Virus record (IMG/VR): IMGVR_UViG_3300021373_001027
Coordinates: 1-64,000 of that record
Strand: one strand, 5' to 3'
DNA: 64,000 bases
Origin: a virus
Shown: in pieces, positions 15,787-52,071 of the stretch
How the letters are laid out: the number at the start of each line of letters is the position of its first letter
Position numbering within the stretch: position 1 is the stretch's first letter
Program-made: the position numbers and the translations under genes
Notes under the pieces: model-generated
Databases searched by the model: none
What the model was told of the DNA's origin: nothing
The model's input: only the letters and a program-made list of their open reading frames with translations

Positions 15787-15795
15787 AAGAATACC

Positions 15796-15933: not shown

Positions 15934-15940
15934 AATATAC

Positions 15941-16925: not shown

Positions 16926-16926
16926 A

Positions 16927-33395: not shown

Positions 33396-33599
33396 CACAC
33401 TCGCTCTCACCCTCGCCCTCGCCCGATTTGAAAAAATACGTAATCATTCGTCTGGAATAGTAATAGTAGATAGTAGATACAAAATTATATATACGCGGGG
33501 GTCGGTATACCGTGGGTTCCCCCACGCCCCTTAGATCGGGCTGGAGTCCCTATGCTAACAGGGATACAGTAACAGGTTAGGATAAAGTCGGAGATGTTG

Positions 33600-33655
33600 T
33601 TGAACTTGATTGGGTATTGTGAGGTAATGGCGTCACTGGCACAGCATAGTGCCAG
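33600..33655 (+). promoter_or_regulatory. Possible early promoter with operator-like inverted repeat
   Basis: TTGAAC (33600-33605), 17 bases, GGTAAT (33623-33628): 4 of 6 in each box. Just downstream is a perfect inverted repeat CTGGCAC-N6-GTGCCAG (33636-33655) sharing the CTGGCA core with the repeats 250 bases upstream. Position overlapping the expected start of transcription suits a repressor site. Inference. Confidence 0.45.
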
Positions 33656-33664
33656 CGCCTACAA

Positions 33665-33685
33665 AGTTATACACACTGTATAACT
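33665..33685. promoter_or_regulatory. AGTTATAC inverted repeat, copy 1
   Basis: AGTTATAC-ACACT-GTATAACT, perfect 8-bp arms (9 counting A/T next to them), 26 bases before the start of the first early gene. Confidence 0.85.
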
Positions 33686-33711
33686 CGGGCTATTAAATAG
33701 AGACTATTACT

Positions 33712-34338
33712 ATGGAAAAGAAAGCAGACAAAATCGTCGTTACAGCAGCGGCGAAGCGTACCATCAAAGCAGTCGCAAACGCGTTCACCGATGGTGAAAT
33801 CGCAATGGTTGATGCCGTCAATAAGGCGCAGTCAAGTGCACAGCGTGGCGCTGATAAGCTGTTAGCAGCAGGTATGACAGTCAATATGATGTTAATAGAT
33901 AAGAAGGCGCAGCGCGAGACTGAAATAGAGTTTGGCGGTAGCGTGCTAACAGTACTACACATTAGGCACTTGATCGACGTTGCAATGGTCGACGGGCTTT
34001 GTAAGGCGGGCGGTATATTCGGAGACGCGCACCATAAGGCGTTCAACAAGCCCACAAAGGAACGCACCGTTCAGGAAGCTAAAGATGCCAAAGCTGTACA
34101 GCAGCGCTTGGGAGTGCTAAGAGCGCGGCTTAAGCAGGCAATGGGCGCCACCACCACTAAAACGAGCGAGCCGAAGCAGCCCGTGTCACCGACCGAGAAA
34201 CTACTTAAGCAGATCGGTGCGGTTATCAAGTCAATGCAGAAACTTGAAACACCGGAGTTTGATGTGACCGAAGCTTGCAAGTATGCCATCAAGGCAGGGC
34301 TGACAATCGACCCAACGTTCACACTCAACGATAAGTAA
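33712..34338 (+). CDS. Unknown early protein, 208 residues
   Basis: First plus-strand gene. It starts MEKKADKIVVTAAAKRTIKAVANAFTD and is basic and largely helical, with a Thr/Pro-rich linker around 145-165 and a C-terminal helical segment. I do not recognise a family. Single-gene transcription unit: an AGTTATAC inverted repeat precedes it and a strong terminator follows directly. Its proximity to the candidate origin and to the operator-like repeats makes a regulatory or DNA-binding role worth considering, but nothing in the sequence shows one. Confidence 0.8.
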   Translation: MEKKADKIVVTAAAKRTIKAVANAFTDGEIAMVDAVNKAQSSAQRGADKLLAAGMTVNMMLIDKKAQRETEIEFGGSVLTVLHIRHLIDVAMVDGLCKAGGIFGDAHHKAFNKPTKERTVQEAKDAKAVQQRLGVLRARLKQAMGATTTKTSEPKQPVSPTEKLLKQIGAVIKSMQKLETPEFDVTEACKYAIKAGLTIDPTFTLNDK

Positions 34339-34346
34339 CTACCACT

Positions 34347-34371
34347 AGCCACCTTCGGGTGGCTTTTTTTT
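34347..34371 (+). terminator. Rho-independent terminator
   Basis: GCCACC (34348-34353), TTCG loop, GGTGGC (34358-34363) and eight T. It isolates the first early gene from the origin region. A second hairpin (CCCGC-N7-GCGGG) follows at 34374-34390 without a T run. Confidence 0.93.
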
Positions 34372-34473
34372 CGCCCGCGATTCGTGCGGGATTGATGCCA
34401 GTATATTAGTGTAGCATGTAGTTTTTGATGGCACGCTCACCGCATCGCAGAACTTTGAAGAGAACGGAGTACA

Positions 34474-34494
34474 AGTTATACACCGTGTATAACT
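34474..34494. promoter_or_regulatory. AGTTATAC inverted repeat, copy 2
   Basis: AGTTATAC-ACCGT-GTATAACT, perfect arms, between the terminator and the iteron array; not adjacent to a gene start. Confidence 0.85.
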
Positions 34495-34542
34495 TAATAA
34501 CGACATGATACCAGTAGATCGTGTAGCATCGTGTAGCTGGGA

Positions 34543-35060
34543 GTTGTAGGTTGTTATCGGTGGTTGTAGGTTGTTATCGGTTTCGCTTGGTTGTTATCGG
34601 TATTGTTACCTTTTTGGGACTTCCCGATAACAAAATACCATTTATAGGAACAGCTCACTAGATCACCCTCAGTGATACTCATTACACTTCTAAATGATTG
34701 CAGATGGTGAGTAGTAGTAGTAGTAGATTATTCTTTTTTTATTTTGTTATCGTTTTTTATTTATTAACTATTATTGGGGGATTCGCTAGACCCCGCTGGA
34801 ATGCTATCACCCCCAAGCTAACTCCCCCTCACAAGGTAATAGACCCGATAACACGATAACATCGTAACAAATCAATGAAATCAAGCACTTACCAAAAAAA
34901 ACGGTAACAATACAATAACAAACGATAACAAAACGATAACAAAGCCAAAAGGTAACAATACAATCGCCCCCGATAACAAACCAATCACGCCCAATAACAA
35001 TACCCCGCTCACCAAATAACAAAAAGGTAACAAACCAATCACGCCCAATAACAATACAAT
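34543..35060. other. Candidate replication origin: CGATAAC iterons around AT-rich DNA
   Basis: The heptamer CGATAAC occurs at 34625, 34846, 34854, 34923, 34934 and 34971, and its complement GTTATCG at 34553, 34573, 34593 and 34746. Many one-mismatch forms (GGTAACA, CAATAACA) lie between. Left copies mostly point one way, right copies the other, and the middle (34725-34775) is AT-rich with T runs. This is the layout of an iteron-type origin bound by an initiator. Location beside the early promoter agrees. No initiator is identified. Confidence 0.6.
34974..35057. repeat. 30-bp direct repeat within the iteron array
   Basis: The 30 bases starting TAACAAACCAATCACG at 34974-35003 recur exactly at 35028-35057, 54 bp apart; each contains one strong and one degenerate iteron. 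Confidence 0.9.
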
Positions 35061-35111
35061 AAACAGCCAATAACTAAATAAACTAGGGTTGCTTTACTTG
35101 GTTGGTTTTAC

Positions 35112-35140
35112 TTGACTCTAACGTGTTTAAAGCGTATAAT
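35112..35140 (+). promoter_or_regulatory. Strong sigma70-type early promoter
   Basis: TTGACT (35112-35117), 17-base spacer, TATAAT (35135-35140): 5 of 6 and 6 of 6 matches with optimal spacing. It reads toward the main early operon; transcription should start near 35147, giving a leader of about 500 bases before the first gene. An inverted repeat CATATACA-N9-TGTATATG lies in the leader at 35434-35458. Confidence 0.8.
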
Positions 35141-35251
35141 GGCTATTCAATGGTAGTAATTTGTGTTTGGACGCGTTGCTACCTATGCCGCACGACCCGC
35201 TTTGGTTGTGCTGTATGTTGACTGTTATAGAGCTAGCGATAGGGAGTGCGA

Positions 35252-35272
35252 AGTTATACACCACGTATAACT
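35252..35272. promoter_or_regulatory. AGTTATAC inverted repeat, copy 3
   Basis: AGTTATAC-ACCAC-GTATAACT, perfect arms, in the leader about 105 bases after the predicted transcription start. Confidence 0.85.
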
Positions 35273-35646
35273 TTGGTCTGAAAGCCGTTGCAACCATACA
35301 TCTTGTGGTCATGCGCGATCCTATCCACCGCCGGTCAGTCAGCCTACAGTTCCAACCGCTGCGGAGACGCACCCAACAATCCAAACTAGCCAGTGAATAC
35401 CGCGACGGGTACTGGCGAACCACGCAGCGAAAGCATATACATCTATCAAGTGTATATGTGAGTTGCGCGTGGAGTGGCTATTCGATGAACCCTCCCGAAT
35501 CCTCTGCACCACCGATCCCTCCGAGTCAGTATCCAATGAGCCTCGCGCCATGCAGCAATGCTGGCGAAAAATACCTGTCCACGGTTTCTCAATACCGTGT
35601 TGATAAAGCCATAGCAGAAACAGGTTAACAATAACGGAGACTTACC

Positions 35647-35871
35647 ATGAATCGACTACGCAAATCCTCGTACCACTACAGTAACTATTCCCTCCGCACT
35701 ACGGAGTCTATTCCCAGTGCACCGGTTACACCGTTCAACCCCGAGGCCGAAGGTCGGGTAACAACCCAGACCTACACCGGCTCACTGGTCAAGGGCATCG
35801 CAACGATGCACAAGTCTAACCTGATCCCTGTCACTTCGGGCATCGGGACTAATCCTAAAATCACAAGCTAA
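35647..35871 (+). CDS. Small early protein, 74 residues
   Basis: Starts MNRLRKSSYHYSNYSLRTTES, preceded by GGAG. Ser/Thr/Pro-rich, no domain recognised. A copy of the AGTTATAC inverted repeat begins at the last base of its stop codon. First gene after the strong early promoter, so probably one of the earliest proteins made; host-takeover roles are common at such positions but none is visible here. Confidence 0.65.
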   Translation: MNRLRKSSYHYSNYSLRTTESIPSAPVTPFNPEAEGRVTTQTYTGSLVKGIATMHKSNLIPVTSGIGTNPKITS

Positions 35872-35891
35872 GTTATACACCGTGTATAACT
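35871..35891. promoter_or_regulatory. AGTTATAC inverted repeat, copy 4
   Basis: AGTTATAC-ACCGT-GTATAACT, perfect arms, from the stop codon of one gene to a few bases before the AAGGAG of the next. Confidence 0.88.
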
Positions 35892-35905
35892 ATTAAGGAG
35901 AAAAA

Positions 35906-36253
35906 ATGGGAACAAGAAAAAGAAACATAGCCAACGCGATGTTATCAAGGCCATCGCAGATCGCCACTATTGTTAACAACCTGCCTTGTCCACCCGATGC
36001 GATCATCGCGCAATCCCGAGACAACATGACAGTGCTAAAAGCTGTGATGCTCTGGGAGTTGTACGATGATTGGTCGTACGAGTTAGCGTTAAATAACTAC
36101 GAGCGTCGTTCTCGGCATTACGTTAACGCGGCGTCTGTACTTAGTGACTGGTTAAAGAGTGAGTACAACATCAGACCGCTTGATGTGTTAATGCCCAACC
36201 CTGCACCAATAAACAACCCATTCAAAAAAATCTTTGGAGAAAACCATGACTGA
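35906..36253 (+). CDS. Early protein, 115 residues
   Basis: ATG follows a clear AAGGAG. The protein is helical, with LKAVMLWELYDDWSYELALNNYERRSRHYVNAASVLSDWL in the middle (two helices, Trp/Tyr-rich) and a Pro-rich C-terminus. No known family recognised. It overlaps the start of the DUF3150-like gene by 8 bases, so may be translated together with the cassette that follows. Confidence 0.75.
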   Translation: MGTRKRNIANAMLSRPSQIATIVNNLPCPPDAIIAQSRDNMTVLKAVMLWELYDDWSYELALNNYERRSRHYVNAASVLSDWLKSEYNIRPLDVLMPNPAPINNPFKKIFGENHD

Positions 36254-37148
36254 ACTAAACTTTAACACCCCCGATATTCAAACGGACGTATCCCTTGCCA
36301 CTAGCGCGTGCCTTGTAAGCTGGAACGTATCGGCGTGGTCGGGCCGTAAGAAAGACACCAAGGCAGCGGGTAGCCTATCAATGGCAACCGGCGCAACCAC
36401 CAAATCTGTGTCTGTACATAAAAAGCTGATCAGCCTACCTGAGTTTGAAGCCATCAGTAAGCACGTTGGCTGGGTACGCAATAACTTTCACTACACTAAG
36501 ACCTTACCTTGGTCTGATACAGGCTTGCGGTTACTCGCCACCGAGGAGTTGTTCGACTACAAGCCACAAATGGAGGAACACGCGCAGGAGTTCGATAGGC
36601 TTGTTCGTGAGTTCTTTTCAGTATACCTAGACGCGATCAACCGAGGTCGTAACGAGTTAGGTACGCTGTTTGACGAGACGCAGTACCCTACGCTGGACGA
36701 GCTTGCTAGTAAGTTCTCATGGCGTACGACGTTTATCCCTGTACCTACGAGTAATGACTTCCGCATTGATGTATCCCAAGTGCAGAAAGATAGCTTGGCG
36801 AGTGAGTACGAGGACTTCTATCAAGCTGAGATGAAGCGTGCAATGGATACCGTGTGGGTAGACTTGCATACGTCACTGGTAGAGCTAAGCCAGAAGCTTG
36901 ACTTTGAAGCGGCTGGTAAGAAAAACAAGTTGTTTGCATCACGGCTGGATACCATACGCCAGCTAACCCGATTGCTGGGGTCATGTAACTTTACCAACGA
37001 TCCCAAAATGTCTGCTATGCAGCGCAAACTGGCATCAGCGTTTGACGGCTTGACGGTGGAGCAGCTTCGCCACAGTGATTCATTGCGTGTCGAGACTAAA
37101 GCTGAGCTTGACGATGCTATCCGACAGCTTCCTAGTTTGGACTTCTAA
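36246..37148 (+). CDS. DUF3150-like partner of the MoxR/VWA cassette
   Basis: 300 residues from the ATG at 36246, which follows TTGGAGAAAACC; a TTG four codons upstream is part of that ribosome site. The first 90 residues include LVSWNVSAWSGRKKDTKA and LPWSDTGLRLL, and the rest is helical. Proteins of this type, usually grouped as DUF3150, occur in phages next to MoxR-type AAA+ ATPases and VWA-metallopeptidase proteins, the same order as here. Domain assignment is by resemblance and context. Probably a component or substrate of that ATPase system. Confidence 0.65.
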   Translation: MTELNFNTPDIQTDVSLATSACLVSWNVSAWSGRKKDTKAAGSLSMATGATTKSVSVHKKLISLPEFEAISKHVGWVRNNFHYTKTLPWSDTGLRLLATEELFDYKPQMEEHAQEFDRLVREFFSVYLDAINRGRNELGTLFDETQYPTLDELASKFSWRTTFIPVPTSNDFRIDVSQVQKDSLASEYEDFYQAEMKRAMDTVWVDLHTSLVELSQKLDFEAAGKKNKLFASRLDTIRQLTRLLGSCNFTNDPKMSAMQRKLASAFDGLTVEQLRHSDSLRVETKAELDDAIRQLPSLDF

Positions 37149-37168
37149 AGTTATACATCGGTATAACT
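37149..37168. promoter_or_regulatory. AGTTATAC inverted repeat, copy 5
   Basis: AGTTATAC-ATCG-GTATAACT with a 4-base centre. It starts immediately after the stop codon and ends 7 bases before the next ATG, where a ribosome-binding site would normally be. Confidence 0.9.
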
Positions 37169-37175
37169 ATCTAAT

Positions 37176-37382
37176 ATGAAGTATTACGTTGAAGCATATT
37201 ACGAGGATGGTGGTCAAATCCTCGGTAATCTGGACGGGCAAGCGGTGCTTAGGTGCCGCAACCCCCGTCGAACCAAGCACTACCGTCATTTACAAGACGT
37301 TATTGCTCAAGGCAAGCACCCCAAAGTTTCGTACTACCGTATCGTAGACGAACATAACCGACTGTTTGAAACCATCATATAA
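37176..37382 (+). CDS. Small early protein, 68 residues
   Basis: MKYYVEAYYEDGGQILGNLDGQAVLRCRN..., mixed alpha/beta, basic centre. No family recognised. It has no Shine-Dalgarno sequence; an AGTTATAC hairpin occupies that position. It lies between the DUF3150-like and AAA+ genes, so is part of the cassette. Confidence 0.72.
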   Translation: MKYYVEAYYEDGGQILGNLDGQAVLRCRNPRRTKHYRHLQDVIAQGKHPKVSYYRIVDEHNRLFETII

Positions 37383-37397
37383 TCTTTGGAGAAAACC

Positions 37398-38486
37398 ATG
37401 AATGCATTAAAAACTTACGCTGTAAATTTTGAAGAAGCGGTGTCTGCTATCGTGAACCTTGGCGATGAGGTGACATACGTGTTTGAGGGTGATATGGGTA
37501 TTGGCAAATCAGCCATGCTCAAAATGGTGGCCGAGGCACTGCCTAACCACGTACCCTGCTACTTCGATTGCAACACCAAAGACGTAGCCGATGCCTTTGT
37601 ACCTGACATTTCTTCAGCGCAGACTGAGAATGTGGTACGTATGGTGCCTAACGCAGAGTTCGGTATTCAACACGGTAAACCTGTTATCCTGATGATAGAC
37701 GAGGTGGGTAAAGCCGAAGGTGCTTTGCTTAAAGCGTTGTTCGCAACGTTCCACGAGCGTAGCATTGGCATGACCCCGTTACCCAAAGGCTCTATCGTCT
37801 TTGCAACAACCAATCTGGGAGCCGAGAATTTGGGTGACCTGATCCCTCCGCATGGCTTAGACCGTGTAACTAAAGTACGACTCCGAAAGCCGACCCCTAC
37901 TGAATGGATGGAGTGGGGCTTTAACAATGACATTCACCCTACCGTTCTGGCGTGGGTAAAAGACAATCCTCAGTTATTTAATTCCTTCGACGATGTATCT
38001 TCCCCTGAAGATAATCACTACATCTACCACCCCAACGTTGTACGTGACGGGTTTGTAACTCCGCGTGGTCTGGAACGTGCATCCAAGATCATTCACAAGA
38101 TGGACTTGATTGGTGAGACTATGACACGTAGCTCTCTGATCGGTACGCTAGGTTCTCATGGTGCTGGTGATCTTATGGCGTTTGTGACATTGTTCAATCA
38201 AATCCCCTCGCATGATGCAATACTGTCTAGTCCAACTACGGCTATCGTACCTACTGATGCAGCGGCGGCTTGTATGGTGGTGGCGCGTGCACTTGTTAAG
38301 CTTGAAGCTAAGGACGTTTCTAAGTGGATGGAATACCTAGTACGTTTGGACAAAGGTGCACAAGTATTGTTTGGTCTACAAGCTAAGGCCAAAACCTACA
38401 AGCGTCAGAAAGCCGTTGTCAGTAACGGTGCGTTCAACAAGTGGGCGTTGGACAATAGTTATATCTTCAGTGCTGACAAGCAATAG
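37398..38486 (+). CDS. MoxR-type AAA+ ATPase
   Basis: 362 residues from the ATG at 37398, preceded by TTGGAGAAAACC; the TTG of that motif could be read as an upstream start but is unlikely. Walker A GDMGIGKS (31-38), Walker B VILMIDEVGKA (about 96-106), sensor-like FATTNLGAENLGD and PHGLDRVTKVRLRKP. MoxR ATPases act as chaperones that remodel or load metal into partner proteins and typically pair with VWA proteins, as the next gene does. The last codons overlap an AGTTATAC inverted repeat; a terminator follows. Confidence 0.88.
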   Translation: MNALKTYAVNFEEAVSAIVNLGDEVTYVFEGDMGIGKSAMLKMVAEALPNHVPCYFDCNTKDVADAFVPDISSAQTENVVRMVPNAEFGIQHGKPVILMIDEVGKAEGALLKALFATFHERSIGMTPLPKGSIVFATTNLGAENLGDLIPPHGLDRVTKVRLRKPTPTEWMEWGFNNDIHPTVLAWVKDNPQLFNSFDDVSSPEDNHYIYHPNVVRDGFVTPRGLERASKIIHKMDLIGETMTRSSLIGTLGSHGAGDLMAFVTLFNQIPSHDAILSSPTTAIVPTDAAAACMVVARALVKLEAKDVSKWMEYLVRLDKGAQVLFGLQAKAKTYKRQKAVVSNGAFNKWALDNSYIFSADKQ

Positions 38487-38504
38487 TTATACAACGGTAT
38501 AACT
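38485..38504. promoter_or_regulatory. AGTTATAC inverted repeat, copy 6
   Basis: AGTTATAC-AACG-GTATAACT with a 4-base centre. It starts inside the TAG stop codon and lies five bases before a rho-independent terminator. Confidence 0.9.
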
Positions 38505-38508
38505 TTAT

Positions 38509-38538
38509 GGGGTGACAGTTTTTGTCACCCTTTTTTTT
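38509..38538 (+). terminator. Rho-independent terminator between AAA+ and VWA genes
   Basis: GGGTGACA (38510-38517), 5-base loop, TGTCACCC (38523-38530), eight T. Placed inside the cassette, 18 bases before the VWA start. It should lower VWA and replication-gene expression relative to the ATPase unless antiterminated. Confidence 0.92.
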
Positions 38539-38555
38539 ATCAATGGAGAGTTAAC

Positions 38556-39845
38556 ATGAATATGTTGAATATTGGTATTAAGTTCACACTAGAACAGCGT
38601 CTAGATAAAGCGTTGGGTGATCTTATGGACGGCCCTCACGGACAGGCACGCTATCGTGCAATGGCTGGCATCTTTATGCTGGGTGACTGTTCAATCAGTG
38701 AAGAAGCCGGTGTAACAGCTTACACCAATGGCATTGACGAGGTGTATGGTCGTGCGTTCTTTGAAAACCTGAGTGACGCGCAGCTTCGCTATGTACGGGT
38801 GCACGAGAACAAGCACAAAATGTACAAGCACCCTTCGTTGTTCAAGTGGTTGTGGGATATAGATGCGGCAGCGGCAGGTGAAGCTACTGATCATTATATT
38901 AACTTACAGATAAACGACGAGAACCCCGATGGGTTTTGTAAGATGCCCACCGATGAGAACGGCGACCCAATGGGTTTTGCTAATCCTAAGTACAAAGGCA
39001 AAGACCCCGTTGCTATCTTCTGGGATATTGTCAATGCTAAGAAAGCTAACAATGACAATGGTGAAAGTGAGAGTGGTGACGGTAAGAGTACTGAAGGTAA
39101 TGGTGATGATAGCGGTGCGCCTAGTCCCGACGATGGTAATTTTGATGATCATGGTCACTTCGACGATGCGTTATCACCTGATCAAGAAAAGCAAGTAGAG
39201 CGTGCTGTAGAGGACGCCATACGTCAAGGTCTACTGGCATCAAGCAAAAGCGGGAACGGCGACACGCTGGGTTTAGCTGAACTAGTCGAACCCAAGGTTG
39301 ATTGGAAAGTGGCACTTCGAGACTTCATACAAGCTAACTGTAAGGGTCGCAGGTTAACAACATATCGCAGACCCAACCGCAGGTTTATGGGGGCTAAGAT
39401 ATACCTACCAAGTTTATATGATCAACGTGTTGACGATCTTATCATTGCACCGGATTGCTCTGGTTCGATGCTGTCACCAAGGCAGTGGCAAACCATGCTC
39501 ACCGAGTTACACGCGGCCATTAAAATGGTAACACCTAAACGTGTTCACATATTGTATTGGGACTCTAAAGTACGTAGGCATGAAACGTACACTGAAGAAA
39601 AAGCCGATGATATTCTTAAGAGTGTTAAACCTGTAGGCGGCGGCGGTACTAATCCTGAGTGTATACCTCAGTACATACTTGATAATAAAATCAAGGGCCA
39701 GTGTGCCGTGGTGTTGACTGACGGTTACTTTTTCTACGGTCAAGGTGATTGGACTATGCCTGTACTCTGGGGTGTTATTGACAATAAATCCTTTAAAGCT
39801 GCTAAGGGTAAAGCCTTGCACATTCAGTCGAGTAGCATACGATGA
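38556..39845 (+). CDS. VWA-like protein with putative metallopeptidase domain (DUF2201 type)
   Basis: 429 residues. N-terminal helical domain with H83-ENK-H87, an HExxH zinc-peptidase motif in VRVHENKHKMYKH. An acidic, low-complexity linker follows (about 165-210, rich in Asp, Gly, Ser). The C-terminal VWA-like domain has a MIDAS motif D300-CSGS, GGGGTNP and VVLTDGYF. This matches the VWA-like DUF2201 architecture, with a predicted metallopeptidase domain at the N-terminus. It follows a MoxR ATPase, its usual partner. Role in phages is not established, to my knowledge. The next ORF overlaps its stop (ATGA). Confidence 0.85.
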   Translation: MNMLNIGIKFTLEQRLDKALGDLMDGPHGQARYRAMAGIFMLGDCSISEEAGVTAYTNGIDEVYGRAFFENLSDAQLRYVRVHENKHKMYKHPSLFKWLWDIDAAAAGEATDHYINLQINDENPDGFCKMPTDENGDPMGFANPKYKGKDPVAIFWDIVNAKKANNDNGESESGDGKSTEGNGDDSGAPSPDDGNFDDHGHFDDALSPDQEKQVERAVEDAIRQGLLASSKSGNGDTLGLAELVEPKVDWKVALRDFIQANCKGRRLTTYRRPNRRFMGAKIYLPSLYDQRVDDLIIAPDCSGSMLSPRQWQTMLTELHAAIKMVTPKRVHILYWDSKVRRHETYTEEKADDILKSVKPVGGGGTNPECIPQYILDNKIKGQCAVVLTDGYFFYGQGDWTMPVLWGVIDNKSFKAAKGKALHIQSSSIR

Positions 39846-40069
39846 AACAACCTATTGTTAAAAAACTACCTACCCACAAAAAAGTAAAGTACATGATTGA
39901 TAACCCCGAGCTTGCAGGAGTATTATTAGATCATTGGGCAGGTAGCAGCACCAAGCACTTTACTGTTAAGGACGCTAAGAGGTTCGGCAAAGACGTACGT
40001 TCGTCTCCGCTTACTATGGGGGAATGGATGGACATTGAGTGGGAGGGTATGGCTGATGACAAAAGCTGA
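39842..40069 (+). CDS. Small early protein, 75 residues
   Basis: Overlaps the VWA stop as ATGA. MKQPIVKKLPTHKKVKYMIDNPELAGVLLDHWAG..., basic first half and acidic last half ending MGEWMDIEWEGMADDKS. Function unknown; overlap implies coupled expression with the VWA protein. Confidence 0.68.
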   Translation: MKQPIVKKLPTHKKVKYMIDNPELAGVLLDHWAGSSTKHFTVKDAKRFGKDVRSSPLTMGEWMDIEWEGMADDKS

Positions 40070-40202
40070 AATGCAAATGTTTCACGACGTTAATGATAAA
40101 TGCCAAGCGTTAATTCGTGAAAACAAAGCCCTAAAGCTAACTATAAAGAAGTTACTTTCACAACTAGTTAAGATTAAAGGAGCTAGCAATGAAGATGCCT
40201 AG
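40056..40202 (+). CDS. Small coiled-coil protein, 48 residues
   Basis: Short frame MTKAEMQMFHDVNDKCQALIRENK... overlapping both neighbours. The second half shows heptad Leu/Ile positions (LIRENKALKLTIKKLLSQLVKI), so a short coiled coil is likely. The GGGAGGG 9 bases upstream is a good ribosome site. Unknown function. Confidence 0.6.
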   Translation: MTKAEMQMFHDVNDKCQALIRENKALKLTIKKLLSQLVKIKGASNEDA

Positions 40203-40275
40203 AGATTGTATCTACGCGTTATCGTTTTTGTTTGCGTTGATTTCTATTTACTCAATTGTTGCTGAGATACAGTAG
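40189..40275 (+). CDS. Tiny membrane protein, 28 residues
   Basis: MKMPRDCIYALSFLFALISI..., basic start and a single hydrophobic stretch of about 19 residues, then EIQ. AAGGAG lies 7 bases before the ATG. Overlaps the upstream mini-gene. A single-pass inner membrane peptide; possible superinfection or host-control role is speculation. Confidence 0.6.
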   Translation: MKMPRDCIYALSFLFALISIYSIVAEIQ

Positions 40276-40279
40276 CTAA

Positions 40280-40300
40280 AGTTATACAGGAGGTATAACA
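40280..40300. promoter_or_regulatory. AGTTATAC inverted repeat, copy 7, with Shine-Dalgarno in the loop
   Basis: AGTTATAC-AGGAG-GTATAACA: left arm perfect, last base of the right arm changed. The centre supplies the AGGAGG ribosome-binding site (40288-40293) for the ATG at 40302, eight bases on. If this folds as RNA, ribosome access is through a 5-base loop, implying translational control. Confidence 0.85.
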
Positions 40301-40301
40301 A

Positions 40302-40502
40302 ATGGATAACATTTCCACCGGAAAGCTTGCCCACCCTGCGAATTTGGGTAGGCAAAAGTCTGTTGACGACACTATATCAATGGACAGACTAGAGAAGTTT
40401 GTTAACAGGACGTTTCATTGGAAGTCTTTACCGGCTTCTGATCAAATGAAAATGGCTAAAGAGTTACTACGAAGGAGGCGAGAAAGTGGAGGGGTCTACT
40501 GA
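40302..40502 (+). CDS. Small early protein, 66 residues
   Basis: MDNISTGKLAHPANLGRQKS, then a helical basic half (LEKFVNRTFHWKSLPASDQMKMAKELLRRRR). Its ribosome site is in the loop of an AGTTATAC inverted repeat. No family recognised; the Arg-rich helix could bind nucleic acid. Confidence 0.7.
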   Translation: MDNISTGKLAHPANLGRQKSVDDTISMDRLEKFVNRTFHWKSLPASDQMKMAKELLRRRRESGGVY

Positions 40503-40572
40503 GGTTATTCTTTTCTATGGGATGATTGTTTGCATCATCGCTTTTAGTTTTCTTTCAACGAGGCGCAAATAA
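40486..40572 (+). CDS. Tiny membrane protein, 28 residues
   Basis: GTG start with AAGGAGG 8 bases upstream, giving an acidic start (MEGSTEV), one hydrophobic segment (ILFYGMIVCIIAFSFL) and a basic end STRRK. Positive-inside predicts an N-out, C-in peptide. The stop overlaps the DUF3310 start as TAATG. Confidence 0.6.
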   Translation: MEGSTEVILFYGMIVCIIAFSFLSTRRK

Positions 40573-40814
40573 TGAAGGAAGGACACGATGTAGTTGACAA
40601 GCCCAATCATTATATGGTGGCGGGCATTGAGGTTAGGGACATACAAAAGGAGTTATGTGCACCATTCATAGGTCAAGAGGCTAGTGATCTAAGCAATGCA
40701 ATCAAGTACCTACTGCGATCCCCAAAAAAAGGCAAGCTTGCAGAGGACTTGAAGAAGTGTCGCAGACATATTACTTGGCTGATTGATTCAATAGAGGGGA
40801 CTTCATGCAAATAA
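40572..40814 (+). CDS. DUF3310 protein, T7 gp1.7-like nucleotide kinase family
   Basis: 80 residues. VDKPNHYMVAGIEVRDIQKEL at 8-28, GQEASDLSNAIKYLLRSPKKG at 34-54 and LAEDLKKCRRHITWLIDSI near the end reproduce the DUF3310 pattern (NHY...G.E..D.., ..NA.KYL.R...K....DL.K...Y). T7 gp1.7, a member, phosphorylates dTMP and dGMP. Whether this short version is active cannot be told. Start overlaps the tiny membrane gene (TAATG). Confidence 0.8.
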   Translation: MKEGHDVVDKPNHYMVAGIEVRDIQKELCAPFIGQEASDLSNAIKYLLRSPKKGKLAEDLKKCRRHITWLIDSIEGTSCK

Positions 40815-41029
40815 AAATGCCGTTGCTTATTGAGGTAGTCCACGATACTGACATTTTGGAATCCGTAGCCTATCTAAAAGTATGGGAGGAAGATGGAGAC
40901 ATTCTTAATAGCTTTATGGCATGGAAAGTAGAGAACGTATCCATGCCTTTAGACTGTATGCCAACCGCCCTGTCTGAGTTTTTTGCTGACGTTGCTGCTG
41001 ATGAATACTTAGGAGAATATCCAGAATGA
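40805..41029 (+). CDS. Small acidic early protein, 74 residues
   Basis: Starts MQIKMPLLIEVVHDTDILES, overlapping the DUF3310 end by 10 bases. Acidic, with DGDILNSFMAWKVENVSMP and ALSEFFADVAADEYLGEYPE. No family recognised. The stop overlaps the next start as ATGA. Acidic small early proteins are often DNA mimics or enzyme inhibitors, but nothing specific is seen. Confidence 0.68.
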   Translation: MQIKMPLLIEVVHDTDILESVAYLKVWEEDGDILNSFMAWKVENVSMPLDCMPTALSEFFADVAADEYLGEYPE

Positions 41030-41265
41030 AAACTAAAATTCATGTCAATCAACATATTATTCGTAGGAATAATAAACTCAAGGGTGAAGCCGTAGATATT
41101 TTTCACGAACCACCTATCACGGTTAAGCAAGGTAAGTTAAATACCTACTGTAAGGAGGTTGAAGTAACAGGGCCGTGTGTTGTTAAGTACTCACCTGATA
41201 AGCCGCTATCCTGCGGTGCTAAGGTGTGGATAGAAACGGATTCATCAGTCATTTTTATTAAATAG
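41026..41265 (+). CDS. Small early protein, 79 residues
   Basis: MKTKIHVNQHIIRRNNKLKGEAVDIFHEPPITVKQGK..., beta-rich with VEVTGPCVVKYSPDKPLSCGAKVWIET. A conserved-looking RRN---KGE--P---V--G pattern is seen in small phage proteins that accompany replication genes. Function unknown. Start overlaps the acidic gene by ATGA. Confidence 0.68.
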   Translation: MKTKIHVNQHIIRRNNKLKGEAVDIFHEPPITVKQGKLNTYCKEVEVTGPCVVKYSPDKPLSCGAKVWIETDSSVIFIK

Positions 41266-41273
41266 GGAGGGTT

Positions 41274-41453
41274 ATGGCTCAAGATGAACTGGAGTTTGAA
41301 ATACTGCTGGCTGTTGAAGCAGCAGAAGTAACAAGCGAGAACTTAAAAAAGAATATCGCCGTGTTAAATGATTTACAAGTTGTACCTGTCGATCAACTTA
41401 CCATAGAGCAACGTTCTCGTGTTGTAGAAATAATTAAATATCACTTTAGCTAA
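41274..41453 (+). CDS. Small helical protein, 59 residues
   Basis: MAQDELEFEILLAVEAAEVT... followed by helical LTIEQRSRVVEIIKYHFS. GGGAGG lies 5 bases before the ATG. Not recognised; fills the gap between the 79-residue protein and the 359-residue protein. Confidence 0.62.
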   Translation: MAQDELEFEILLAVEAAEVTSENLKKNIAVLNDLQVVPVDQLTIEQRSRVVEIIKYHFS

Positions 41454-41470
41454 TTAATAGGAAACTAATC

Positions 41471-42550
41471 ATGTCAGCATTTGAAACTATGAATATAGAA
41501 AGACTGGTATCAAGCTTGGCGTTACCTTGTGAACATCAAGACGAAAATACCAAACACGAATCTTTACAATCCGGTTGGGTAATTGACTGCTTTCCGGTAA
41601 CTAAGGAACTTTATGGTTACTGCACACAGCTACGTAAAGCTATGCCCAGTTTACGTTTTGGTGTTGATCGTGACGTATTGGAGATAGCACAGACGCAAAA
41701 GACACACACTTCGTTTTCAAAATGCTATGTCTACAGAGCCGATGATCTTTATGTAATGGGTGCAATTGGTTTTGGTATGTTAGGCAATGCCGCTGAGGAT
41801 AAATACTTAACCAAGTCTCAGCATATAGAAAACAATATGTTTTGTGAGTGGTCGCGTGCACACAAATGTAAAGCCACAAAGAACATAAGGCCAGCGGTCG
41901 CCAATGCGCTTACTTACTTTAGACGGCCTTCTGATAGGCATGTTTTGGACGCAACTTATCGTGCCTATACCGGAAGGGTTAATGCATTTTTAGAACAAGA
42001 GCGGAATGTTTTGGCGTCAAAAATGAGTGAGCTGTATAAAGAACTTACCGGCCTGATGTTTGGCAAGGCATGGGAAAAAGAAAATGATTCCCAGTATATG
42101 TTTCAATCTGTACTAGGTTCGTATCGAACCAAGCCTCATCTATGTAGACCTGTTAGTAGTGAAATGTTTGGTGATGTGCCTTTGGTAAAAGCAATCAACG
42201 ATTTAGCTAATAGCTATTTCAAACTCGCGGATACAAAGACTGATGTTTCTTTGGTGCACCCCGTTAAAGATGTAAATAATGTATTAGTGGGATACAACAT
42301 CACTAAGCTTGTCGAACAACAGACGCGTAACACTTTATCGGAACTTGAACCTGATATTTATCAAAAGAACTTAGTGGTAAGTGAGTGCGTTGATCAAGAA
42401 ATAGCTTCAAAGGTTGCAACGTTGTCTATGCTTGAGGAAAAAGAGTACAGCGCAGGGCTTGGGCTGAAGCTTGCCGGTGACATTTACTACGTAGAAACTA
42501 ATGTCGAAGCTCTGCCCGACGACTACTATGATAGGCAGGGTGAAAGCTAA
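41471..42550 (+). CDS. Unknown replication-region protein, 359 residues
   Basis: AATTAATAGGAAACTAATC precedes the ATG. Mixed alpha/beta with LRFGVDRDVLEIAQT, KCYVYRADDLYVMGAIGFGM (positions about 84-103) and KYLTKSQHIENNMF near 110-123, then an alpha-helical middle and C-terminus. No catalytic signature recognised. It sits directly before the VRR-NUC nuclease, with a TAATG overlap, so it probably belongs to the DNA-replication or recombination set. Confidence 0.75.
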   Translation: MSAFETMNIERLVSSLALPCEHQDENTKHESLQSGWVIDCFPVTKELYGYCTQLRKAMPSLRFGVDRDVLEIAQTQKTHTSFSKCYVYRADDLYVMGAIGFGMLGNAAEDKYLTKSQHIENNMFCEWSRAHKCKATKNIRPAVANALTYFRRPSDRHVLDATYRAYTGRVNAFLEQERNVLASKMSELYKELTGLMFGKAWEKENDSQYMFQSVLGSYRTKPHLCRPVSSEMFGDVPLVKAINDLANSYFKLADTKTDVSLVHPVKDVNNVLVGYNITKLVEQQTRNTLSELEPDIYQKNLVVSECVDQEIASKVATLSMLEEKEYSAGLGLKLAGDIYYVETNVEALPDDYYDRQGES

Positions 42551-42879
42551 TGGCTATGACTCCAGAAGCAAAAGTTAAGCGCAAGGTAACTGACATTCTT
42601 AAGAAGTTAGAATGCTATTACTTTTACCCTGCCACCGGAGGCTATGGTAAGAGCGGTGTGCCTGACATTGTGGCTTGCTTTAGAGGCGTGTTTGTGGGCA
42701 TTGAATGTAAGGCAGGCAAGAATAAACCCACACTGCTACAAGAGAGAAACTTGGATCAAATTAGAAGCGCTGGGGGACTGGCGCTTGTTGTTAATGAAAA
42801 CAACCTACATCAATTGACTGAGTTTATTATCGAACAAAAGTTGGGGATAGCCAATGCGGCAGATAACGTTAGACACTGA
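42550..42879 (+). CDS. VRR-NUC endonuclease
   Basis: 109 residues, the full length of stand-alone phage VRR-NUC proteins. PD-(D/E)XK core: GVPD39 and IE52-CK54, with Q64 in LLQERNLDQIRSAGG. These nucleases act on branched or Holliday-type DNA intermediates. The ATG overlaps the previous stop (TAATG) and the polymerase start lies 26 bases inside this gene, so the three genes are translated together. Confidence 0.88.
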   Translation: MAMTPEAKVKRKVTDILKKLECYYFYPATGGYGKSGVPDIVACFRGVFVGIECKAGKNKPTLLQERNLDQIRSAGGLALVVNENNLHQLTEFIIEQKLGIANAADNVRH

Positions 42880-44773
42880 GTGTTATGTAAACTACTTTCT
42901 TATGGTGTTCACCAATGAAAGCGGCAAGTCTAAATCGTTTGAGATATACGGAGATGATCATTCAAAGTTTGACAAGGGTGAGATTGCCAAGATTCTATTA
43001 AACCCTGACTACGAGATAGTTACATTTAACGGCAACGGTTACGATATGCCGATTGTTAACCTTGCATTGACGGGGACACTTTCCAACCGCGATCTTAAAA
43101 AGGTTAGTGACGACATAATTGTAAACAATCAACGAGCTTGGCAGGTTTACAAGAAGTACGGCATTGAACCTTTGCCGGTTAACCACATTGACCTACAAGA
43201 AGTAGCGATAGGTATGGTTAGCCTGAAGATATACGGAGGTAGGATGCACAGCCAAAAACTACAAGACCTGCCGCTTGAACCTGATACCGTTATTCAGCCT
43301 CATCATTTACCGGATATGCGTAAGTACTGCAAGAACGATACGCTGTTGACCCTTGATCTGTATAACACGTTAAAGAAACAGATAGAGTTACGACGTAAGA
43401 TGAGCGCTGAGTATGGTACAGACCTACGCTCAAAATCAGACGCCCAGATAGCAGAGGCCGTACTGAAAGCTGAGTATAAACGCATACACGGTGACTTCCC
43501 TGAACGCGTGTCCTTGGACTACAAATCATTTTACTATGTACCCCCGTCCTACATTAAGTTTATGTCAAAAGAACTTAACGAAGTATTAAAAACAATTTGC
43601 ACGGCGGAAATGACAATATCGGACACAGGGCATGTATCCATGCCGAAAGAAATTGCCAAGCTTAAGATAAGCATAGGTAAAAGTACGTACAAGATAGGTA
43701 TAGGTGGCTTACATAGTCAAGAATCTGAAGTTGCTCATCACACTTGTGACGATTACGTTTTGTTAGATAGAGACGTAGCTTCTTACTACCCCAGTCTCAT
43801 GTTAAATTTAAAGCTATTCCCCAGTGCTTTTGGGAGTACCTTCCTAGATGTTTTTCAGAAGATTCTAAAGGACAGGCTTGCAGCCAAGGCAAGTGGAGAT
43901 AAGACCGTAGCCGACTCTTTAAAGATTGTTCTCAATGGTACGTTTGGTAAAACTTCAAACGTTTATTCCAGCCTATATAGTCCTGACTTAATGATAGCCA
44001 CTACTCTGACAGGGCAGTTGTCGCTGCTTATGTTAATAGAAGCTGTTGAGCATATAGGCTGCGAAGTTGTTTCAGCCAATACAGATGGTGTGGTTATTAA
44101 AGCACCCCGTAGTTTAAAAACTACATTGGACAAACTAGTAGCCCATTGGGAAAAGCGCACCAATCTTGAGACAGAAGAAACGCTATATAACTCTCTGTAC
44201 TCCAGAGATGTTAATAACTACATAGCCATAAAACCTGACGGTGTAAAGACTAAGGGCGTGTATGCCCCTGACGGCTTGAACAAAAACCCTCAAGCACCCA
44301 TCTGTGTCGAAGCGGCTACTCAATACCTTTTAAATAAAATACCTTATGAAGAAACTATAACTTCATCCGGGGACATAACACGTTTTGTAACCGTGAGAAG
44401 GGTTACAGGAGGCGCAGTAAAAGACGGCATCAGTCTGGGTAAGGCTATTCGCTGGTACTACAGCGCCGACAACAAGAACCCCATAACGTACTTAAAGAAT
44501 GGCAATATCGTTCCGCGCTCCGAAGGGGCAAAGCCTTGTCTTGATCTACCTAATGAGTTTCCAGCAGACATTGATTACCAATGGTATATTGCCGAAACCA
44601 AAGATATACTGGTATCAATCGGCGCGTTACCTAGACCGGTATACGAGAAGATACCGCGCAAAAACAGCAAGGCATGGAAAGAGTTAATGCAAGCTGGTGA
44701 AATCCAATTAGACGTTAAGGGCAAATCGCAATGGGTACACCCCGAGCAGCACCTTGGAGCTTCAGCAAAATAA
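42854..44773 (+). CDS. Family B DNA polymerase with 3'-5' exonuclease
   Basis: 639 residues. Exonuclease motifs: D7-T-E9, TFNGNGYD (57-64) and YCKND (158-162). Polymerase motifs: A, LLDRDVASYYPS (303-314); B, KIVLNGTFGK (357-366); C, SANTDGV (407-413). It is shorter than typical family B enzymes (about 750-1000). Motif C has NTD where DTD is usual; this variant occurs in other phage family B enzymes. With the AEP primase, helicase and SSB it forms the replisome. No TPR1/TPR2-type protein-priming inserts are obvious. Confidence 0.9.
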   Translation: MRQITLDTECYVNYFLMVFTNESGKSKSFEIYGDDHSKFDKGEIAKILLNPDYEIVTFNGNGYDMPIVNLALTGTLSNRDLKKVSDDIIVNNQRAWQVYKKYGIEPLPVNHIDLQEVAIGMVSLKIYGGRMHSQKLQDLPLEPDTVIQPHHLPDMRKYCKNDTLLTLDLYNTLKKQIELRRKMSAEYGTDLRSKSDAQIAEAVLKAEYKRIHGDFPERVSLDYKSFYYVPPSYIKFMSKELNEVLKTICTAEMTISDTGHVSMPKEIAKLKISIGKSTYKIGIGGLHSQESEVAHHTCDDYVLLDRDVASYYPSLMLNLKLFPSAFGSTFLDVFQKILKDRLAAKASGDKTVADSLKIVLNGTFGKTSNVYSSLYSPDLMIATTLTGQLSLLMLIEAVEHIGCEVVSANTDGVVIKAPRSLKTTLDKLVAHWEKRTNLETEETLYNSLYSRDVNNYIAIKPDGVKTKGVYAPDGLNKNPQAPICVEAATQYLLNKIPYEETITSSGDITRFVTVRRVTGGAVKDGISLGKAIRWYYSADNKNPITYLKNGNIVPRSEGAKPCLDLPNEFPADIDYQWYIAETKDILVSIGALPRPVYEKIPRKNSKAWKELMQAGEIQLDVKGKSQWVHPEQHLGASAK

Positions 44774-45414
44774 AGTCCTTTGAGCAATGCCCTCGACAGT
44801 TTCATCAAGTCAAGGTTGTAAAGGCTTACCCACAAGAAGAAAATGATGCCATGTTGTACGGCACAGCCTACCATGAAGCGGCTGAGTTTTACGTTAGGGA
44901 CAATACGCCGCTCCCCCCGCAGTTTCAATTCTCTCAAAAACTTCTAGATTCATTGAACGCAAAGACAGGTAAAAAGCTCTGCGAATACGAGCTAGGTCTG
45001 ACCGCTGATCTTGAACCTTGCACATTTAAAGCCGACGATGTTTGGTTCCGAGGTATTGTTGACTTACTGATATTAGATGAAGAAAACGAGTTAGCATGGG
45101 TCATTGATTACAAGACTGGGCGCAACACAAAATATGCGGATACGGGCCAGCTAGAGCTTATGGCACTCGCAACCTTTAAACACTTCCCTCAAATAAAAAA
45201 GGTACGAGCAGGATTGCTTTTTGTTGTAGCTGATAAGCTAATCAAAACAAGTTATGATAAAGAAGATAGCTCTAAGTTGTGGCAAAAATGGTTGTCTGAC
45301 TACAGTAGAATGGAAAAATCGTTTGACAATGACGTTTGGAACGCCCATCCTAGTGGTCTATGTCGTAGGCATTGTCCAGTAAAGGAATGCCCACACAACG
45401 GGGCTTATAGCTAA
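44731..45414 (+). CDS. Cas4/RecB-type PD-(D/E)XK nuclease with Cys cluster
   Basis: 227 residues. Motifs: H48 in GTAYHEAAE, D111 in GIVDLL, D126-Y-K128 in DYKTG and Q140. Four Cys are placed as in Fe-S-containing Cas4/AddB nucleases: C20 (EQCPRQF) and C211, C215, C220 near the end, suggesting a 4Fe-4S cluster. Cas4-like phage proteins process DNA ends in recombination-dependent replication. No CRISPR array is nearby. It overlaps the polymerase by 43 bases. Confidence 0.85.
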   Translation: MGTPRAAPWSFSKIKSFEQCPRQFHQVKVVKAYPQEENDAMLYGTAYHEAAEFYVRDNTPLPPQFQFSQKLLDSLNAKTGKKLCEYELGLTADLEPCTFKADDVWFRGIVDLLILDEENELAWVIDYKTGRNTKYADTGQLELMALATFKHFPQIKKVRAGLLFVVADKLIKTSYDKEDSSKLWQKWLSDYSRMEKSFDNDVWNAHPSGLCRRHCPVKECPHNGAYS

Positions 45415-45671
45415 TGGCTAGAGATTACAAAAAAGAGTACAAGACGCAAAAGAAACGGGGCGAAACTCCTGATCGAATGGAACGTCAACGTGCACGCAGG
45501 GCCATTGATAAACGCGATACAGGGACAGTTACCAAGAAGTCCCCCAAGCGTAAAGGTAAAGATGTAAGCCACAACAAAATGCTAAGCAAAGGCGGCAGCA
45601 ACAAAGACGGTTACCGCTTAGAAAGCCCTTCAAAGAATAGGGCTAGGAACGGCCAAAAGAAAAAGAAGTAA
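45414..45671 (+). CDS. Small basic protein, degenerate HNH-like
   Basis: 85 residues, highly Lys/Arg-rich: MARDYKKEYKTQKKRGETPDRM, KDVSHNKMLSKGGSNKDGYRLESPSKNRARNGQKKKK. The C-terminal half matches small phage HNH-type proteins (DV-H---------N---L---SKNRSR), but the second catalytic His is replaced or missing here, so catalytic function is doubtful. Probably DNA-binding. An AGTTATAC inverted repeat starts immediately after the stop. Confidence 0.65.
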   Translation: MARDYKKEYKTQKKRGETPDRMERQRARRAIDKRDTGTVTKKSPKRKGKDVSHNKMLSKGGSNKDGYRLESPSKNRARNGQKKKK

Positions 45672-45691
45672 AGTTATACGGTTGTATAACT
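45672..45691. promoter_or_regulatory. AGTTATAC inverted repeat, copy 8
   Basis: AGTTATAC-GGTT-GTATAACT with a 4-base centre, directly after the stop codon and 57 bases before the helicase start. The last copy found; genes beyond 46 kb lack it. Confidence 0.9.
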
Positions 45692-45748
45692 TTGGTATTT
45701 GGGTGACGCAGACGCGTTTCGCCCCGCTCTGTTATGCAAGGAGACTGC

Positions 45749-47284
45749 ATGGAGATTATAAAAAATAAAGCACTTAAGCTTAAAGTTAAGCATCCAAACC
45801 GAATCACTGAAGTTATACCAAAAAGCAAACAGGTGTCCACGCACGAAGTTCTGGTTAATTGGGGCTTACCGGAAACCAAGATACTGCGGAATTTAAACAT
45901 AAACGCCCCCTCCCCAATCGAACGTCAGTACGCTTGGACAGGCAAGTACACACCGTTCGATCATCAAATTACAACCTCAGCATTCTTTACCATGCACCGC
46001 AAATGCTTCTGCTTCAACGAAATGGGTACAGGTAAAACGGCTAGTGTGATATGGGCTTCAGATTTCCTGCTTAATAAAAAAGAAATTAACAGAGTACTCA
46101 TTGTATGCCCGCTGTCCATCATGGACTCTGCGTGGCGTGCCGATCTGTTTACTTTTGCGATGCACCGGAAGGTGGACATTGCTCACGGTACACCGACTAA
46201 ACGCCGAGCAATCATTAAAGGTGATGCAGAGTACGTCATTATAAATTACGAAGGTATTGAAATTGTCCGTGACGAAATTATCAACGGCGGGTTTGACCTT
46301 GTTGTAATTGATGAAGCAAACGCATACAAGAACGCTAAGTCTAAACGGTGGAAGATACTAAACAGTTTACTGAATAAAGATACACGACTATGGCTAATGA
46401 CAGGTACACCCGCAGCGCAGTCCCCGCTTGATGCCTATGGTTTAGCAAAGCTAGTCAATGCTTCGGCAGTACCTCAGTTTTTCGGATCGTGGCGTGATCA
46501 AGTAATGAACAAAATCACTCAGTTCAAGTACGTGCCGAAAGCCGATGCCACGGATACAGTGTTTAGGGTATTGCAACCAGCAATACGGTTCACCAAAGCC
46601 GAATGCCTTGATCTGCCAGAAGTTACGATGGTCAAACGTAAGGTAGACCTGACGCCGCAGCAAGCTAAGTATTATAAAGACATTAAAAATAAGATGGTCA
46701 TAGCCGCTGATGGTGAAGAAGTTACCGCCGCTAACGCCGCTATTGTGATGAACAAACTACTGCAAATTAGCTCCGGTGCTGTCTACAGTGACAACGGTGA
46801 GTCCCTGATGTTTGATATAAAGAACAGGTACAAAGTTCTCAAGGAGGTCATAGACGAGTCAAGTCAAAAAGTTTTAGTCTTTGCTCCCTTCAAGCATGTA
46901 ATTAGCTCCCTAACTGATAAGCTACGCGCAGATGGCTTGTCGTGTGAGATTATTTCCGGTGACGTTAGCGCGTCCAAACGCACTGAGATATTTAAAACGT
47001 TTCAACAAAACCCCGACCCTCAAGTGCTGATAATTCAACCACAAGCAGCCGCACACGGTGTTACGTTAACCGCAGCCAACACAGTTGTTTGGTGGGGGCC
47101 AACGTCCTCCCTAGATATTTTCTATCAAGCCAACGCTAGGATTCACAGAGCAGGGCAAAACCACAAGTGTACAGTGGTGCAGCTAAGTGGATCAGCGATT
47201 GAAGATCATGTTTACTCTTTGTTGGATCAAAGAATTGATGTTCACTCAAAAGTTGTCGATCTTTATAAACAATTACTTGACTAA
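45749..47284 (+). CDS. SNF2-type DEAD-like helicase
   Basis: 511 residues from the ATG at 45749, chosen for the AAGGAG six bases upstream; another ATG lies five codons earlier. Motif I MGTGKTASVIWA (about 91-102), motif II VVIDEAN (DEAH-like, about 184-190), motif III LMTGTPAAQSPLDAYG, motif V ANTVVWWGP and motif VI QANARIHRAGQ. SNF2-family translocases move on duplex DNA; phage members assist replication or recombination. The set polymerase/VRR-NUC/Cas4-like/SNF2 is typical of many phages. Start of a new cotranscribed group after the last AGTTATAC repeat. Confidence 0.9.
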   Translation: MEIIKNKALKLKVKHPNRITEVIPKSKQVSTHEVLVNWGLPETKILRNLNINAPSPIERQYAWTGKYTPFDHQITTSAFFTMHRKCFCFNEMGTGKTASVIWASDFLLNKKEINRVLIVCPLSIMDSAWRADLFTFAMHRKVDIAHGTPTKRRAIIKGDAEYVIINYEGIEIVRDEIINGGFDLVVIDEANAYKNAKSKRWKILNSLLNKDTRLWLMTGTPAAQSPLDAYGLAKLVNASAVPQFFGSWRDQVMNKITQFKYVPKADATDTVFRVLQPAIRFTKAECLDLPEVTMVKRKVDLTPQQAKYYKDIKNKMVIAADGEEVTAANAAIVMNKLLQISSGAVYSDNGESLMFDIKNRYKVLKEVIDESSQKVLVFAPFKHVISSLTDKLRADGLSCEIISGDVSASKRTEIFKTFQQNPDPQVLIIQPQAAAHGVTLTAANTVVWWGPTSSLDIFYQANARIHRAGQNHKCTVVQLSGSAIEDHVYSLLDQRIDVHSKVVDLYKQLLD

Positions 47285-47348
47285 CTCACAGCCCTCACCT
47301 ATATTAACCAACCCCGAGCATTTTTCGGTGCGATGAAAGGAGAGTAAA

Positions 47349-47741
47349 GTGGACGTTTCTGTAGAGAAGTTAACCGGTATTTACCTAAAAATAAAATCCA
47401 AACGAGACGTACTGTCTCGTGATTTCAAGCAAGAAGATGAACGTTTGAAAGTTCAACAAGACGCGATCAAGCAACGCCTTCTTGATTACTGCAAAGCGAA
47501 CGAGATTGAGTCTGTTCGTACCGAAGCTGGTACGTTTTATCGTTCTATCAAAACTAAGTTCTGGACAAGTGATTGGGAGTCTATGCACAAGTTTATTCTT
47601 GAGCATGAAGTTCCTGAGTTTTTAACGAAGTCTTTGAACCAAGCTAATGTTAAGCAATTCATGGACGAAAACCCTACCCTTGTACCCGCAGGACTCAACG
47701 TTGATTCTGAGTATGTGGTATCCGTAAGAAAAGCAAAATAG
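47349..47741 (+). CDS. Conserved-type phage replication-region protein, 130 residues
   Basis: GTG start preceded by AAAGGAGAG. N-terminal coiled coil (about 8-60: LKIKSKRDVLSRDFKQEDERLKVQQDAIKQRLLDYCKAN), then ESVRTEAGTFYRSIKTKFWTSDW and a short C-terminal beta part with PAGLNVDSEYVVSVRK. The FWTSDWESMHKFI block is widely seen in phage proteins encoded by SSB and helicase genes, unassigned functionally to my knowledge. Possible recombination accessory. Confidence 0.75.
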   Translation: MDVSVEKLTGIYLKIKSKRDVLSRDFKQEDERLKVQQDAIKQRLLDYCKANEIESVRTEAGTFYRSIKTKFWTSDWESMHKFILEHEVPEFLTKSLNQANVKQFMDENPTLVPAGLNVDSEYVVSVRKAK

Positions 47742-47751
47742 GAGGTTATAA

Positions 47752-48027: not shown

Positions 48028-48038
48028 GAGAAGTTATT

Positions 48039-48932: not shown

Positions 48933-48937
48933 CCTGA

Positions 48938-48964
48938 CCCCCGCCCCTGCTATGTGAGCGGGGG
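48938..48964 (+). promoter_or_regulatory. Strong GC hairpin between SSB and primase genes
   Basis: CCCCCGC (48938-48944) pairs with GCGGGGG (48958-48964), loop 13 bases, no T run. It starts just past the SSB stop. Likely protects the abundant SSB message from 3' decay or lowers read-through into the primase gene. Confidence 0.65.
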
Positions 48965-48981
48965 CATATTTGGAGACACAC

Positions 48982-52009: not shown

Positions 52010-52071
52010 GGATATAATCGGATACCGCTTTTGTCATGGGGAGCGGTTATTCATGGTAGTCTCCTTACTTT

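Follow-up and report, generated by a model that had tools for sequence, protein, structure and literature searches.

Ever since the Cluster O mycobacteriophages (Corndog) were described, it has been a puzzle why phages without an integrase carry dispersed palindromes. The Cluster O genomes each have 34 copies of TGTTCGG-N3-CCGAACA, a repeat of 17 base pairs (bp) of unknown function for which no partner protein was reported (PMC4351075). Other dispersed phage elements include (i) the L5-type stoperators of Cluster A, asymmetric sites in the orientation of transcription at which the bound monomeric repressor of temperate phages stops transcription elongation (PMC9283540, PMC6550527), (ii) the SPBRE repeats of SPbeta, which are operator-like and bound by the phage master repressor MrpR (PMC10516654), and (iii) the SAS and ESAS repeats of Cluster K, which lie directly ahead of start codons, are in some cases inverted and have a consensus that varies by subcluster (PMC3203893). 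Here, we analyse a palindrome family, AGTTATAC-N4/5-GTATAACT, in the early region of the virus record IMGVR_UViG_3300021373_001027 from IMG/VR, using the first 64,000 nucleotides (nt) of that record (the window). Comparison with relatives shows that the sequence of such palindromes co-segregates with the allele of the first early gene, gp1, and with no other comparable shared gene, and these comparisons suggest that gp1 is the likely partner of the palindromes.

A preliminary description of the window held that no phage element of this form had been described. This is not quite the case, and the Cluster O repeat is the closest described element: it shares with the palindromes analysed here the many copies, short dyad, invariant arms and variable centre without fixed orientation, and arms of 7 bp, many intergenic copies, no recognised integrase and a proposed role as a dimer site are features of both (PMC4351075). 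Unlike here, the Cluster O repeat is one sequence common to five phages with approximately one third of its copies inside genes, and neither a partner protein nor type switching was reported for it (PMC4351075), whereas the phage-specific arms described here co-segregate with one gene. The Cluster O half-site TGTTCGG is absent from the consensus half-sites listed here, i.e. AGTTATAC and more than 25 other types. The closest functional analogue is the Cluster A stoperators together with their repressor. In Cluster A, operators and repressor co-diverge and the sites lie in short intergenic gaps. Co-divergence of site and protein was also found here, with gp1 and half-site co-segregating and gp1 a candidate repressor; unlike stoperators, the sites are palindromic with centres in both orientations, an integrase was not found in the records searched, and gp1 is without a known DNA-binding domain. 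SPbeta differs in being a temperate Bacillus prophage with a single repeat type, and its repressor MrpR is a known protein that differs in type from gp1 (PMC10516654). The Cluster K repeats resemble those described here in their position ahead of start codons, in the inverted arrangement of some and in their varying consensus, and differ in that SAS is an asymmetric 13-bp sequence with a ribosome-binding signal and in that the 17-bp arms of ESAS are imperfect (PMC3203893). We regard the palindromes as probable dispersed phage operators, with a possibly new DNA-binding family.

In the window, seven exact copies of the palindrome and one copy with a single changed base (right arm GTATAACA) are present at the positions given in the preliminary description (Table 1). 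Dinucleotide shuffles of the sequence contained no copies and none are expected by chance; beyond the window, the record (65,380 bases in total) has no further exact copies. As had been claimed, all eight copies lie outside genes, except for stop-codon overlaps of 1-2 nt, although coding sequence makes up 87% of the region (P ~8e-8 for 8/8), and on the early side, inside the rightward early block 33526-52093 (P ~5e-5). The copy at 35252 lies within a mechanical 155-codon TTG open reading frame (ORF), which is no conserved gene. Four copies (35871, 37149, 38485 and 45672) overlap or adjoin a stop codon at their start, also in line with the earlier observation. The arms are AT-rich and a T run is absent, confirming that the palindromes themselves are not intrinsic terminators; the 38485 copy is followed at a distance of 4 nt by a strong intrinsic terminator (38509-38531 and the T run after it), and the Shine-Dalgarno (SD) sequence AGGAGG of the next gene sits within the centre of the 40280 copy.

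Relatives were analysed in two samples. Sample 1 comprised 80 loci collected via the DUF3150-like protein, in which palindromes were sought de novo with no sequence assumed (81 loci counted), and sample 2 comprised 78 further loci collected afterwards via the ATPase, two of which (L279 and L283) came from contigs already seen, the rest being new. At least three exact copies with 7-bp arms were present in 65/81 loci of sample 1, with at most one copy in Markov resamples, and at least three copies with 6-bp arms in 76/78 loci of sample 2. Thus, nearly all relatives (~140) have a repeated palindrome at these early junctions, and its arms are phage-specific, with more than 25 types (e.g. GTTCTAC, GTTAGGGA, GTTAGTG, GTATGGA, TACTGCG, TCGGGAC, TCCCTAC and TTCATAC). 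A palindrome precedes gp1 in 45/45 loci, the DUF3150-like gene in 59/71 and the ATPase gene in 51/66, and the copies of near-complete genomes are found mainly in the early block. The phage-wide early regulon of the preliminary proposal and the occurrence of copies at homologous junctions in relatives are supported; its preference for RNA is not (see below). In six less related control phages with the polymerase or the MoxR ATPase in common but without the cassette, no palindrome family was found.

The window motif itself was found in two other multi-copy contigs in a pattern scan of viral contigs. Nine copies are present in a near relative (L077 and others), and the motif also occurs in a distant relative (L029), the DUF3150-like, ATPase and vWA proteins of which are 35-42% identical to those of the window. 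The arms are unchanged among these phages and the centres differ: those of the window are ACCGT-like, those of the near relative ATTTT/AAAAT and those of the distant one CACA. Between the window and L077, the centres are almost wholly changed and the arms not at all, and the centres are alike within each genome. Among named phages with a DUF3150 gene, Planktothrix phage Pra-JY27 (L078), the sole cultivated relative in which we found sites of this kind, has 15 copies of GGTTCA-N3-TGAACC within the 29.8 kb analysed, a previously undescribed family often situated 21-22 nt ahead of annotated start codons; in Tunturiibacter phage Tunturi_3, a palindrome family with 7-bp arms was not found.

The 208-residue protein, one of the two candidate binders named in the preliminary description, is gp1, and it is this protein that co-varies with the palindromes. 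Between phages with different half-sites, gp1 identity reaches a maximum of ~0.42-0.43; other shared genes are up to 88-98% identical in such pairs (91-98% for all but the 75-residue protein). Restricting the comparison to phage pairs with ATPases more than 90% identical, and giving counts rather than probabilities because these pairs are not statistically independent, gp1 identity in sample 1 was 0.70-1.0 for the same palindrome (44 pairs) and 0.11-0.28 for different palindromes (53 pairs), and in sample 2 0.52-1.0 (68 pairs) and 0.11-0.26 (23 pairs), respectively, with no overlap of the ranges in either sample. In the pair L218/L220, TerL (100%), portal (99.8%), DUF3150 (99%), ATPase (99.7%), vWA (99.8%) and TerS (within 99-100%) are nearly or fully identical and the gp1 proteins are without match to each other; in the aligned junctions only the palindrome and a few adjoining bases are exchanged (GTTAGGGAATTCCCTAAC vs GGTAGTCCACGGACTACC). 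At the L218 junctions 7970, 9089 and 10520, the palindromes are swapped exactly in place, with flanks 97-100% identical to L220. Exchange of a gp1 cassette would account for the nearest sites but not for those kilobases off between near-identical genes. Mantel (distance-correlation) tests gave p = 0.0035 for gp1 but also p = 0.004 for VRR-NUC and are no more than suggestive. The DUF3150, ATPase, vWA and VRR-NUC proteins were considered as specificity determinants and rejected, being 92-98% identical across different palindromes. The gp1 family is basic (median isoelectric point 8.9), unlike the DUF3150, ATPase and vWA proteins, and from its co-segregation with the palindromes and its position we infer that gp1 binds DNA.

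Which form of the site is recognised can be addressed by the symmetry of the centres. The preliminary description preferred an RNA stem-loop over a dimer site. In an RNA hairpin the innermost 3-4 nt are unpairable and unconstrained; we found the outer bases of this stretch to be complementary at 246/320 sites (77%) vs 112 +/- 7 expected (~35%). Moreover, one and the same genome can have centres in both orientations (e.g. ACT/AGT and AAAAT/ATTTT), and the sigma70-type promoter of gp1 follows the first copy at 20-90 bp in many relatives (usually 20-60 bp from the site start), so that this copy is outside the gp1 mRNA. For these reasons, we favour operators in double-stranded DNA over RNA hairpins, and the repressor-operator option of the preliminary description is supported in the sense of a regulatory element for a putative dimeric factor.

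Combining these data, we suggest that the palindromes are probably double-stranded DNA operators for a phage-encoded dimer, most likely gp1, itself behind the first operator; a regulatory role is moderately likely. Predicted sigma70-like promoters are enriched near the palindromes and, at sites other than that of gp1, the promoter, when predicted, starts 60-120 bp upstream of the site; a search for promoter elements conserved at a set distance from the palindromes found none. Because the sites are rarely on promoters and have these offsets, a road-block or looping repressor fits better than occlusion. In this model, gp1 would be made first from a host-type promoter, bind the dispersed operators and damp transcription of gp1 and of the genes for DUF3150, the MoxR ATPase and vWA by road-block or looping and not by promoter covering. 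Such a repressor would act in trans, and co-infecting phages with the same operators would therefore be silenced; this cross-silencing would favour new gp1/operator types and explain the rapid switching in phages without integrase. Because Phage_integrase, Resolvase and ParB_N had no match in the 13 records searched and a scan of a genome contig collection found no relative, lysogenic immunity is unlikely. We hypothesize a role in type-specific exclusion. The broader proposal that gp1 belongs to a novel class of proteins that bind DNA sequence-specifically, and that in these phages without integrase gp1 and the palindromes together form a switchable self/non-self code in which type is changed by joint replacement and exclusion occurs without lysogeny, is tentative and more doubtful than the operator model itself.

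Several observations weigh against the operator model. Firstly, gp1 has no recognisable DNA-binding domain: searches of Pfam, PHROG, PDB sequences and Foldseek gave nothing credible, a match in isolated phages was not found, and the structures predicted by AlphaFold for two members, with pLDDT values of 81 and 92 and wholly or largely helical, had no match in PDB. Secondly, gp1 is only 17-25% identical in some phages with the same half-site, and one lineage (L144/L145/L155) has at this position a gene without detectable homology to the main gp1 family. Thirdly, few sites overlap a predicted promoter, and simple promoter occlusion is thus not the geometry. Finally, the half-site spacing varies by 1 bp within some phages, which would not be expected of a rigid dimer and constitutes the strongest argument left for another kind of element; the dependence among the phage pairs mentioned above also belongs here.

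Alternatively, the palindromes could be RNA stem-loops of early mRNAs that function in translation, processing or antitermination and are bound by gp1 or a different factor. Many copies precede a start codon by 11-33 nt, the SD sequence is in the centre of one copy, two copies are directly ahead of terminators, some sites are in leaders downstream of predicted promoters, and between phages the sequence changes while the stem stays. Nevertheless, the symmetry that extends into the unpaired loop, the centres in both orientations and the first copy often upstream of the gp1 promoter argue against stem-loops, Rfam gave nothing above threshold, and we regard this explanation as unlikely. ParB/parS and KorB/OB systems typically have palindromes in many dispersed copies, the specificity of which co-evolves. 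Together with the copies near the origin-like repeat region, this would fit centromere-like or nucleoid-organising sites of the parS/KorB-operator type that condense or partition phage DNA; given that ParB_N is missing from the searched records and that the sites are unclustered and at gene junctions, mostly directly ahead of the same genes, such a function is improbable. The in-place swap of all copies of a genome between flanks that are 97-99% identical is hardly explained by point mutation alone and could suggest that the palindromes are selfish or linked to recombination, being copied or converted from site to site in the genome, but the fixed junctions in distant phages, the absence of a coding or transposon hallmark and the co-segregation with gp1 point to a function and render this origin very improbable. 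Lastly, the helix-turn-helix (HTH) protein (47752-48027), proposed as a binder in the preliminary description, is the sole recognised HTH protein among the conserved genes and is present in 7/9 near-complete genomes, but because its HTH region is near-identical in three phages with unrelated palindromes (G005, TCGGGAC; G006, TCCCTAC; G007, TCGTTAC), it is a most improbable determinant.

If gp1 binds the operators as we suggest, it would constitute a DNA-binding family without sequence or fold match in the libraries searched and with many matched specificities. Natural near-isogenic phages point to a single gene as partner in specificity, and nature provides dozens of gp1/site pairs. The in-place exchange of 5-7 sites in otherwise 97-99% identical DNA raises the question of how phages re-specify a regulon and, if the exclusion hypothesis is true, the diversification of immunity types known from temperate phages would extend to phages that look lytic.

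Table 1. Positions of the palindromes and of the associated genes in the window
Feature	Coordinates	Strand	Remarks
Palindrome copy 1	33665..33685	.	Exact; upstream of gp1
gp1, first early protein (208 residues), proposed palindrome binder	33712..34338	+	Co-segregates with palindrome type; without known domain
Palindrome copy 2	34474..34494	.	Exact; past gp1 terminator, adjoins origin-like repeat region
Palindrome copy 3	35252..35272	.	Exact; ~105 bp downstream of predicted start of the 35112-35140 promoter (11/12)
Palindrome copy 4	35871..35891	.	Exact; overlaps stop codon, next ATG 14 nt on
DUF3150-like protein	36234..37148	+	Palindrome before the gene in 59/71 relatives
Palindrome copy 5	37149..37168	.	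Exact; immediately 3' of the DUF3150-like stop codon
MoxR-type AAA ATPase	37386..38486	+	Palindrome before the gene in 51/66 relatives
Palindrome copy 6	38485..38504	.	Exact; between ATPase and vWA genes, terminator 4 nt on
Metallopeptidase-like/vWA protein (DUF2201)	38556..39845	+	Downstream of copy 6
Palindrome copy 7	40280..40300	.	One mismatch; SD of the gene at 40302 in centre
Palindrome copy 8	45672..45691	.	Exact; immediately 3' of stop codon, ahead of helicase gene

The region surrounding copy 2 (34340-35160) is non-coding and AT-rich, contains the iteron-like repeats GTTGTAGGTTGTTATCGG and CGATAACAA/ATAACAATACAAT, is conserved in the near relative L077 and is likely a replication origin. 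In 35112-35620, a strong promoter (TTGACT-17-TATAAT) is followed by ~480 nt that are conserved in L077 without an evident conserved gene; this stretch, for which no Rfam match was found, is possibly a non-coding RNA. Immediately ahead of the first palindrome, most relatives (e.g. L080, L102 and L146) have a G-rich element such as GGGGGGTGGGGGG, situated between this palindrome and the gene for the terminase small subunit; it is a possible packaging site. In G002, the DNA polymerase homologue (15044-17745) consists of two parts with ~750 nt between them, which may represent an insertion. N4-type hairpin promoters, with loops of 3 nt, are read in single-stranded form by a giant virion RNA polymerase; the large proteins here matched DarB-like families, with no search aimed at such a polymerase. 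Directly after the early block of the window, the opposite strand encodes a giant DarB-like protein of 2084 residues (52094-58348); the relative G003 has an even larger ORF of 5302 residues.

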